Source: Halomarina rubra (GTDB lineage: Archaea; Halobacteriota; Halobacteria; Halobacteriales; Haloarculaceae). Taken from it: a stretch of DNA of 64,000 nucleotides. The notes beneath the pieces are model-generated. The model searched no databases. It was given only the letters and a program-made list of their open reading frames with translations, and was not told the origin of the DNA. This document shows, one piece after another, positions 35,925 to 39,937 of this stretch. The position numbers were made by a program, and so were the translations under genes. The stretch is taken from positions 390,925 through 454,924 of the forward strand of contig NZ_JALXFV010000005.1 in assembly GCF_023699475.1 (NCBI RefSeq), read 5' to 3'. Position 1 is the first letter of the stretch, and each line of letters opens with the position of its first letter.

Positions 35925-37685
35925 CTACATCGACTCGGGGGCGGCGACCCCGAGGATGTCGAGCGCGTTGGCGACGGCGTGTTTCGAGGCGGCGACGAGC
36001 GCGAGGCGGGCGGCAGCCACGTCGTCGTCCTCGGCGTTGAGCACCGAACACTCGCGGTAGAAGGCGTTGAACGCCTCGGCGAACTCGCGGGTGTAGGTGG
36101 CTATCTGGTGGGGTTCGAGCGAGTCGGCGGCCTCCTCGACGACCGCGGGGAGTCGTGCGATGTGACGCAGGAGGTCGCGTTCCTCGGGCGTGTCGAGCAG
36201 GGCGACGTCGAGGGAGGCGTCGGCCTCGATGCCGGCGTCGCTCGCCTCGTTGAGGATGCCACAGGCACGGGCGTGGACGTACTGCACGTAGGGGGCGGAC
36301 TGGGCCTCGAAGTCGAGCGCCTGGTCCCACTCGAAGGTGATGGCCTTCGTCGGCTGTTTCGAGACGATGTCGTAGCGGACCGCGCCGATGCCGACCTGGT
36401 GGGCGATGCGCTCGACGTCGTGGTCGTCCAGGTCGTCGTCGCGGATGCGGTCGTCGAGGCGGTCGGTCACCTCGTCGCGGGCGCGGTCGATGGCCTCGTC
36501 GAGCAGGTCGTCGAGGTCGACGCCGGTGCCCGCGCGGGTCGACATCTTCCCCTCGGGGAGGTTGACGTACGAGTAGATGACCGACTCCAGTTTGTCGGTG
36601 TCGTTGCCCAGCAGGTCGAGCGTCGTCCTGAGCTGGTCGGCCTGGAGTTTGTGGTCCTCGCCGAGCACCGTGACGGCGCGGTCGTAGTTCTCGAACTTCC
36701 ACTCGTGGTGGGCGAGGTCGCGCGTGGTGTACAGCGACGTGCCGTCCGAGCGCAGGAAGACGAGGTTCTTCTCGATGCCGTGTGGCGAGAGGTCGAGTTG
36801 CCACGCCTCCTCCTCGTAGACGGCCTCGTCGAACTCCTTGAGGCGGGCGACGACGTCGTCGGTCGAACCGTCGCGCATGAACTGGGTCTCGCGGACGAAC
36901 TCGTCGAACTCGGCGGGCAGGCGTTCGAGACACTCGCGCATCCCCGAGAGCACCTGGTCGACGACCTCGCGGACGCGGTCGAACGTCTCCTCGTCGCCCT
37001 CTTCGAGTCCCTGCAGGATGGCCTCGATCTCGGTCTCGGCCTCGGCGACGTCGGCGGCGTCGCCCTCCTCCAGGAACTCGTTGCCCGCACGGTAGTAGCG
37101 CACGAGGTCGTACTCGATGCGGTCGCGCTCCGGTTCCGGTAGTTCGGACTCGTCGAACGTCTCGTAGGCCCAGGTGAAGACGGCCATCTGGCGACCCGCG
37201 TCGTTGACGTAGTAGTGGCGTTCGACGTCGTTGCCGGCGTACTCGAGGAGGTTGGCGACGGCGTCGCCGACGATGGGGTTGCGTGCACGGCCGACGTGGA
37301 CTGGTCCCGTCGGGTTCGCGGACGTGTGTTCGACGACGACGCTGTCGCCGGTCGGTGCGAGGCGACCGAACGTCTCGGTCTGGGCCGCGTCGAGCGTGCC
37401 CGAGAAGTACGCCTCGTCGGGGTAGAAGTTGAGATACGGCCCCTGGGTCTCACAGCGGTCGACGTACTTCGCGTCCGTCAGGTCGACGGCCTTGGCCAAC
37501 TCGCCGGCGACCTGTGGCGGTGGTGCGCCGGCCTCGCTCGCCAGACGGAACGCGACGCTGGAGGCGAGCACGGAGCCCATCCCTTCCGGTGGTTCTTCGA
37601 TACCGAGGTCCTCGGTGCCGTACCCGAGGTCGTCGAGGGCGGCGGTCAGCGCCGCCGTCACCTCGTCGCGAAACGGTAGGAACAT
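35925..37685 (-). CDS. argS: Arginine-tRNA ligase
   Basis: The 586-residue class I synthetase charges tRNA-Arg. It has the N-terminal additional domain (residues 1-100), the HIGH-type motif in [12 protein letters not shown], a KMSKS-type motif in [16 protein letters not shown], and the anticodon-binding helical domain from about residue 460. The length is normal. A TATA-like CCTTTACC lies about 25 bases before the ATG at 37685. It is divergent from the riboflavin operon. Confidence 0.96.
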
Positions 37686-37798
37686 ACCGCTCGCTTGCCC
37701 GCCACCCGGTAAAGGGGTTTCTTTACCCCGGCACGTGTAGCCACAGTATCGAGGCAGTGGCCCGCCGTCGTGCGGTCCGTGTCACCACGCGCCACTCC

Positions 37799-37832
37799 GT
37801 AACGAATCTGTTATGCGTACCGCGTTCGTTAC
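37799..37832 (+). promoter_or_regulatory. Probable RbkR operator before rbkR-ribB
   Basis: GTAACGAA (37799-37806) and TTCGTTAC (37825-37832) form a perfect eight-base inverted repeat with an 18-base spacer, ending at the TATA-like CGCTTATGC. A direct repeat, TTATGCGTACC (37811-37821) and TTATGCCTACC (37836-37846), overlaps it. The next gene encodes an HTH-riboflavin kinase of the type shown to regulate riboflavin genes in other archaea. Autoregulation here is inference. Confidence 0.55.
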
Positions 37833-37862
37833 GCTTATGCCTACCAGGTTCTCAGTTCGTAC

Positions 37863-38561
37863 ATGGCAGAATCGACACTCGCGGTCGGGGCCGACGCCCG
37901 CGAGACGCTGAAGCGCCTCGCCCTCGACGGTGCGCTCGACGGGCGAGCGCAGGTCTCCTGTTCCGGACTCGCCGCCCACCTCGACGTCTCGACCCAGACC
38001 GTCTCCCGACGCCTCCGTGAACTCGACGAGGCCGGCCTCGTCGACCGCGAGATGGTCGCCGACGGCCAACTCGTCGCGACGACGGACGAGGGCCGCCGCG
38101 TCCTCGAACGCGAGTACGCCGACTACCGCCGCCTGTTCGAGGCCGAACGCGGCGTCGACCTCCACGGCACCGTCACCGGCGGGATGGGCGAGGGTCGCCA
38201 CTACATCTCGTTACCGGGGTACAACCGGCAGTTCGTCGAGCGGCTGGGCTACGAGCCGTTCCCGGGGACGCTGAACGTCGACCTCGACGCCGAGAGCACC
38301 CGCGCCCGCGCGGCGCTCGACGGCCTCGAACCCATCCGCATCGACGGCTGGGAGGACGACGAGCGCACCTACGGGCCGGCGTTCTGCTGGCCCGCGACGC
38401 TCGCGACGGACGACGGCCGCCACGAGACGGTCCACGTCGTCGCCCCCGAGCGGACCCACCACGGCCAGGACAAGGTCGAACTCATCGCCCCCGACCGACT
38501 GCGCGACGACCTCGACCTCGACGACGGCGACGCGGTCACCGTCACCGTGGAGGGCCAGTGA
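37863..38561 (+). CDS. rbkR: HTH-fused CTP-dependent riboflavin kinase (RbkR type)
   Basis: The 232-residue protein joins a winged HTH (about residues 15-90, with [21 protein letters not shown]) to an archaeal riboflavin kinase domain (from about 98: [20 protein letters not shown], then FPGTLNVDL). The kinase makes FMN using CTP. The HTH form, RbkR, is a known bifunctional regulator of riboflavin genes in archaea. Its stop overlaps the ribB ATG (TGATG), so the two form an operon. The inverted repeat at the promoter suggests it controls itself. Confidence 0.9.
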
Positions 38562-39214
38562 TGCAGCGGACCGACGGCGTCGAACGGACCGTCGCCGCCT
38601 TCGAGCGCGGCGAACCCGTCCTCGTCCACGACGCGGCCGACCGCGAGGGCGAGACCGACCTGATCTACCCCGCCGGCAGCGTCACCGCCGAGGCGGTCGC
38701 CCGGATGCGTAACGACGCGGGCGGACTGGTCTGCGTCGCGCTCTCGGACGCCGTCTGTGAGACGTTCGACCTCCCGTTCGCCCAGGAGGTCATCGACCAC
38801 CCCGTCGGCGCGGACCACGACCTCGGCTACGACGAGCGGTCGTCGTTCTCGCTGACGGTCAACCACCGCGACACCTTCACCGGCATCACCGACGCGGACC
38901 GCTCGCGCACCATCACCGAACTGGCTCGCGCCGCCACCGACCCCGACGGCGTCGACTTCGCCGAGGAGTTCCGCGCTCCCGGCCACGTCCACCTGCTCCG
39001 GGCCGCCCCGAACCTCGTCGCCGACCGCGAGGGCCACACCGAACTCGGCCTCGTCCTCGCCGAGGCCGCCGACCTCCCCCCGGCCGTCGTCGTCTGTGAG
39101 ATGCTCGACGACCGCAGCGGACGGGCGCTCTCACCCGCCGACGCCCGCGCCTACGCCGAGCGTAACGGGTTCGCGTACGTCGAAGGGGCGGACGTCGTCC
39201 GCCAGTTCGACTGA
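38561..39214 (+). CDS. ribB: 3,4-dihydroxy-2-butanone-4-phosphate synthase
   Basis: The 217-residue enzyme converts ribulose 5-phosphate to the four-carbon unit of riboflavin. It has ADREGETDLIYPAGSVT (metal and substrate binding), MRNDAGGLVCVALSD and ADREGHTELGLVLAEAA. It is the single-function archaeal form without a RibA domain. The ATG at 38561 shares a base with the rbkR stop, so translation is coupled. This pairs the FMN-forming step with an early step of the pathway. Confidence 0.93.
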   Translation: MQRTDGVERTVAAFERGEPVLVHDAADREGETDLIYPAGSVTAEAVARMRNDAGGLVCVALSDAVCETFDLPFAQEVIDHPVGADHDLGYDERSSFSLTVNHRDTFTGITDADRSRTITELARAATDPDGVDFAEEFRAPGHVHLLRAAPNLVADREGHTELGLVLAEAADLPPAVVVCEMLDDRSGRALSPADARAYAERNGFAYVEGADVVRQFD

Positions 39215-39535
39215 CCCGTTCGGGGAGTCGGACAGGTCCCCGGCGACCGCTGGAGGTCGTTGTGCTTCCGATGTGTAGCTACACACTCACGACAGCGGAG
39301 CCCGTAGTTCGGTCCGCCACCACCCGCCGTACACACCCCCGAGACAGGTGGAGTGCGTTCCCGTACGGCACCGGGTGGTGGTTCGACGACCCGGTATGCG
39401 ACGGCCGTCGACGGCGGACGGAGTCGGAGGCGGTTGGGGCGGCCGCCGCTTCGCCCTCGCTCGGTGGCACACGATTCTCACACGGCCGACGCGGGACCCA
39501 CCACTGCTTTGCCCGGAGCGGTCCGACTCGGAGCC
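39215..39535. other. Gene-free stretch with a perfect 14-base palindrome
   Basis: This 321-base stretch lies between ribB and the NikR-like gene and holds no convincing gene. The notable item is TGTGTAGCTACACA at 39272-39285, a perfect palindrome, located about 250 bases before the regulator. A weak TATA-like GCTTTGCCC lies about 27 bases before the regulator's ATG. Confidence 0.4.
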
Positions 39536-39937
39536 ATGCGAACCACGGTCAACCTCCCCGAGGAGGACCTCGCGGCGTTCGACGCGGTGTGGCAGGCCGA
39601 GGCCATCGACTCGCGCTCGCGGGCCGTCCGCGAGGCGGTCAAGGAGTACACCGAGGCCCACGCCCGCCTCGAGTCGCTCACCGGCGAGGTGACGGCGGTG
39701 CTCGCGTTCGACTACGCCCACCACGAGGTCATCGGCGACCTCCACGACGTGCAACACGACTACCAGGACGTCATCCAGTCGACCAGCCACGCCCACCAGG
39801 GCGAGTGGTGTCTGGAGACCGTCTTCTGTCGCGGCGACGCCGAACGCGTCAGAGAACTCGTCTACGAGTTGCGCGACTTCGATGCAGTCGGGCGCGTGAA
39901 GACACTCTCGCTGAGTGACGGCGGCGTGGAGTCCTGA
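39536..39937 (+). CDS. NikR-like ribbon-helix-helix metal regulator
   Basis: The 133-residue protein has a ribbon-helix-helix domain (MRTTVNLPEEDLAAFDAVW, residues 1-45) and a NikR-type ACT-like C-terminal domain. The nickel ligands known from E. coli NikR have likely counterparts: H74 in DVQHDY, H85 and H87 in SHAHQ, and C92 in EWCLE. It is therefore probably a nickel-responsive repressor. No nickel transporter is beside it. ATG 39536 is chosen because the fold begins at that methionine. Confidence 0.82.
   Translation: MRTTVNLPEEDLAAFDAVWQAEAIDSRSRAVREAVKEYTEAHARLESLTGEVTAVLAFDYAHHEVIGDLHDVQHDYQDVIQSTSHAHQGEWCLETVFCRGDAERVRELVYELRDFDAVGRVKTLSLSDGGVES

Follow-up and report, generated by a model that had tools for sequence, protein, structure and literature searches.

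A predicted RbkR operator of four alternating half-sites upstream of rbkR-ribB in Halomarina rubra and other haloarchaea

The rbkR-ribB operon and its promoter

The window, the 64-kb stretch of Halomarina rubra DNA that was analysed, carries rbkR and ribB on the plus strand behind a TATA box, with argS read divergently (Table 1). The RbkR protein contains a kinase domain (PF01982, E 6.2e-42, residues 104-229) and an N-terminal winged HTH, for which HTH_20 and MarR_2 pass their cut-offs. It aligns over nearly its full length, HTH included, with the T. acidophilum riboflavin kinase of 3cta/5trd (E 1e-34, residues 16-229), which we take to be TA1064. The PF01982 match and this alignment bear out the original prediction that the first gene encodes an HTH-riboflavin kinase, and the one-base overlap of the two genes agrees with its placing of ribB in the operon. 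The closest named relatives are from Halomarina oriensis (86%) and Halomarina halobia (75%). The stretch QTvSRRL was nearly invariant across 56 proteins, and from the HTH alignment we infer that it is the recognition helix. In the excerpted text of PMC8305020, the Hfx. volcanii genes HVO_0326 and HVO_0327 are filed by homology as rbkR (bifunctional) and ribB, respectively.

The rbkR transcript is probably leaderless, since the TATA box lies so close to the ATG. For Hfx. volcanii, the excerpted text of PMC4983044 gives a TTWT consensus and 72% leaderless protein-coding transcripts.

Two other genes were noted in passing. A NikR-like nickel regulator (RHH_1 + NikR_C) is encoded 3' of the rbkR-ribB operon (window 39533-39937, plus strand). 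Three Halomarina genomes (loci L090, L091 and L092) encode a second riboflavin-kinase-like protein, 43-44% identical across no more than the kinase domain; the frame preceding this gene resembles an alpha/beta hydrolase by eye.

Table 1. Genes and sequence features at the rbkR-ribB locus (window coordinates).
Feature	Position	Strand	Description
argS	35925..37685	-	Divergent neighbour; not thought to be under control of the site
Left arm of inverted repeat, CGTAACGAA	37798..37806		Holds half-site 1 (TAACG, 37800-37804); skeleton in 79/84 upstreams
Predicted RbkR operator	37800..37831	+	Four YGNNA half-sites, alternating orientation, 9-bp period, common dyad 37815/37816
Half-site 2 (TGTTA)	37809..37813		YGNNA fit in 82/84 upstreams
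Half-site 3 (TACCG)	37818..37822		Skeleton fit in 80/84 upstreams
Right arm of inverted repeat, TTCGTTACG	37825..37833		Holds half-site 4 (CGTTA, 37827-37831), BRE region; skeleton in 82/84 upstreams
TATA box CTTAT	37834..37838	+	Contains haloarchaeal TTWT; about 25-28 nt 5' of ATG
Direct-repeat copy 2, TTATGCCTACC	37835..37845	+	TATA box and unconserved bases; outside the operator
rbkR	37863..38561	+	Winged HTH and CTP-dependent riboflavin kinase, 232 aa
ribB	38561..39214	+	ATG shares one base with rbkR stop

A conserved array of four half-sites

An inverted repeat had been predicted just 5' of the TATA-like site. Its two 9-nt arms, CGTAACGAA and TTCGTTACG, are 100% complementary and separated by an 18-nt spacer. 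Of 1000 dinucleotide shuffles of the 177-nt argS-rbkR gap, 1.6% contained some perfect 9-nt inverted repeat with at most 30 nt between its arms. The inverted repeat by itself is modest evidence, because 74 pairs of comparable quality, all perfect 9-nt inverted repeats, occur across the 64-kb window. The combination GTAACGAA-N18-TTCGTTAC was found once by pattern search in the 4.07-Mb genome.

Conservation was examined in an alignment of rbkR upstream sequences from 80 named haloarchaeal loci and eight Halomarina genomes, which gave 84 distinct sequences after loci with rbkR identity below 50%, L082 (a duplicate of L001) and repeats of an identical upstream were left out. Conserved columns read TNNCR-N4-YGNNA-YGCR-TNNCR-N4-YGNTA, followed by YGCTTAT, and information content fell off outside the array and the promoter. 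In the window, the corresponding 32 bp are TAACG-AATC-TGTTA-TGCG-TACCG-CGTT-CGTTA, directly 5' of the rbkR-ribB TATA box. All four half-sites fitted in 71 of the 84 upstreams (singly, 79, 82, 80 and 82 for half-sites 1 to 4). At the TATA position TT was present in 84 of 84, the next base being A or T, and CTT was nearly invariant.

Conservation of the repeats in relatives had been proposed as the check on the prediction, and it held for the half-site skeleton and failed for the exact letters of the left arm. The letters GTAACGAA occurred in a single upstream of the 84, that of the Halomarina rubra genome, to which they are unique, and the right-arm letters TTCGTTAC in 17, compared with 79-82 for the half-sites; thus it is the skeleton that is conserved and not the letters. 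Sequence comparison confirmed the inverted repeat as a real part of a conserved putative operator array spanning the Halobacteria sampled, its arms being half-sites 1 and 4.

The direct repeat that had been said to overlap the arms (TTATGCGTACC and TTATGCCTACC, at 37811 and 37835) fared unevenly. Copy 1 spans half-sites 2 and 3. Copy 2 was rejected as an operator element, as conservation stops at the TATA box; over the 84 sequences, the final five letters of copy 2 had a mean match of 1.24/5, versus 3.27/5 for those of copy 1. Covariation of the variable NN bases within the array was highest for half-sites 1/2 (z 3.5 against label shuffles) and nil for half-sites 2/3 (z 0.1); being weak and confounded by kinship, it was not used for dimer assignment.

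Specificity of the array and its recurrence at other riboflavin genes

A matrix was built from rbkR upstreams only, 76 sequences from outside Halomarina. The window site scored 37.7 on the plus and 29.5 on the minus strand, and no other place in the 64-kb window, on whichever strand, scored above 2.7. Over 943,902 positions in the flanks of rbkR loci, three scored at least 10 and none at least 15. A strict array pattern matched in 200 of 293 genomes of the order, and its reversed control in 21 of 293 (counted by hand). When two mismatches were allowed in a search of the genome, 30 strand matches were obtained versus 10 for the reversed control, with no convincing match beyond rbkR and the second ribE-arfA operon described below; locus L106 scored 10.2.

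Of 63 loci taken from the pattern searches (L302-L364), a hand count placed 42 at rbkR (one place counted twice, and L357 holding an additional site before arfA), seven at ribE, two at arfA and 12 elsewhere. Four of the latter, L303 1501-1532, L332 1501-1532, L344 1501-1532 and L359 1003-1034, had matrix scores of 18-24 and no recognised riboflavin gene; they are unexplained, either chance or unknown targets. The L335 match sits within the coding frame of an EF-Tu-like GTPase, and L336 looks alike by translation.

A lumazine-binding (ribE) match was present in 191 of 195 genomes of the order. We scored 99 distinct ribE upstreams (30 loci listed, 60 further loci and the genus loci, identical ones removed). 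The score was at least 10 in 23 of 99, versus 4 of 4950 shuffles, six of these 23 sites lying at -13 over the start codon, where conserved MFTGIVE coding letters add to the score; it was at least 20 in 10 of 99, versus 0 of 4950, and below 10 in 76 of 99. Several of the ribE sites start at -63/-64, like those of rbkR, and others are scattered between -56 and -13. The array also precedes arfA in L337 and L352, where the promoter CGCTTATG is shared with rbkR; in L357 it stands after ribB and before arfA.

The Halomarina rubra genome has a second ribE-arfA operon, with an array scoring 22.5 that spans -56 to -25 relative to the ribE ATG. The ribE product is a riboflavin synthase (PF00677 and PF05165 confirmed), and arfA-2 follows. 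This operon (L190 7626-9134; G000:C12:483625-485133) lies about 29 kb past the window, while the main ribE and main arfA of the same genome are on contigs C1 and C15, respectively. A family search of the other seven Halomarina genomes found no second arfA. Separately, L238 1312-2031 on the minus strand (G000:C14) encodes a third lumazine-binding protein, in which one domain is recognised, and has a weak site (12.2) upstream; a neighbouring frame resembles a P-type ATPase by eye, with the DKTGT motif of that family.

Family searches located the ribH, arfA, arfC, DUF447 and creatininase genes in the eight Halomarina genomes (DUF447 in seven of eight). No site scoring at least 9 was found at the ribH, main arfA, arfC, DUF447 and creatininase loci of these genomes, arfA-2 being the only exception, and the main ribE upstreams of Halomarina scored below zero. 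With these riboflavin loci lacking a site, the regulon in the genus seems small. A search for the same site at ribD, ribE and ribH had been suggested as a check; the site was found at ribE (in 23 of 99) and, in some species, at arfA, and it was not found at ribH in Halomarina.

Proposed autoregulation by RbkR and alternative explanations

The array is very probably the operator through which RbkR represses its own rbkR-ribB operon, as judged from sequence. The autoregulation put forward in the original prediction is supported by the retention of this candidate operator at the regulator's own gene (71 of 84 rbkR upstreams) and by its presence at other riboflavin genes (23 of 99 ribE upstreams and three arfA loci). 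We infer RbkR as the binder because of its HTH, the autogenous position of the array and the reappearance of the array at other genes of the pathway. RbkR would recognise 5-bp YGNNA half-sites, and the four alternating half-sites, which together would make one two-fold symmetric 32-bp array, would most simply accommodate a pair of adjacent RbkR dimers. With half-site 4 in the BRE region and two bases away from the TATA box, bound RbkR would exclude TFB and TBP, which makes repression of rbkR-ribB the likely sign. Flavin status would presumably alter occupancy via the kinase domain: CTP would tighten binding, and FMN, the product, would loosen it. In the work of Rodionova et al. 2017, CTP reportedly raises and FMN reportedly lowers DNA binding by RbkR proteins.

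A more specific reading, on which we are evenly divided, is that of a composite operator with one dyad and a fixed 9-bp spacing throughout the order, carried whole, at several positions, by ribE and arfA promoters. Two dimers would then bind obligately together and give a steep switch, and the array would change place among rib operons from lineage to lineage but be retained at rbkR-ribB.

The strongest alternative, itself improbable, is that another regulator of the riboflavin pathway binds the block and rbkR is merely a regulated gene. Conservation does not name the protein, and rbkR, ribE and arfA could answer to any flavin-responsive factor. However, the HTH stretch hardly varies among 56 relatives of RbkR, and in the excerpted text of PMC8305020 the T. 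acidophilum homologue TA1064 is the reference for HVO_0326 as both gene regulator and enzyme.

It is considerably less probable that the core promoter (BRE and TATA box) alone is conserved and the inverted repeat is chance. The overlap of the right arm with the BRE region, the near-invariant CTT, the abundance of perfect 9-nt inverted repeats in the window and the solitary occurrence of the exact left arm would all suit such a reading. It is largely refuted, however, by half-sites 1-3, which lie 5' of the BRE with conservation close to that of the TATA box, and by the reappearance of the array before ribE and arfA at distances from the start codon that differ from the one at rbkR. A role of the repeat in RNA, whether as leader hairpin or as riboswitch, was rejected as having next to no likelihood. 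It would suit the ability of inverted repeats to fold and the FMN riboswitches of bacterial rib genes, but Rfam gave 0 matches, FMN riboswitch included, up to E 1 over 37600-38000, no terminator-like site was found at the region, and the array, being upstream of the TATA box, is probably untranscribed.

Autoregulation by RbkR is already known in archaea, and RbkR operators vary between lineages. The archaeal regulon of RbkR, a bifunctional riboflavin kinase and regulator, is said to be the subject of Rodionova et al. 2017 (NAR 45:3785). The predicted system resembles that regulon in its HTH joined to a CTP-dependent riboflavin kinase, its operator at rbkR and riboflavin biosynthesis genes and its pathway logic; the control described here is of a known and expected kind, in unusual detail. 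The second ribE-arfA operon of Halomarina rubra may be unlisted in the published RbkR regulon. In the excerpted text of PMC10746257, the riboflavin operon of P. furiosus has RbkR as its predicted regulator, and the excerpts of the reviews PMC12542839 and PMC13028884, and of PMC3403918, make no mention of an archaeal riboflavin operator. Our search found no published account of an arrangement in four half-sites or of its siting at ribE, arfA and rbkR-ribB; both may well be in Rodionova et al. 2017, which lay outside that search.

The RbkR operator proposed here is a sharp, testable prediction on flavin control in the haloarchaea, among them Haloferax and other genetically tractable genera; its matrix is specific enough to find more members of the regulon. 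One predicted operator, placed differently among ribE, arfA and rbkR-ribB by lineage, would make a clean case for the study of regulon evolution.
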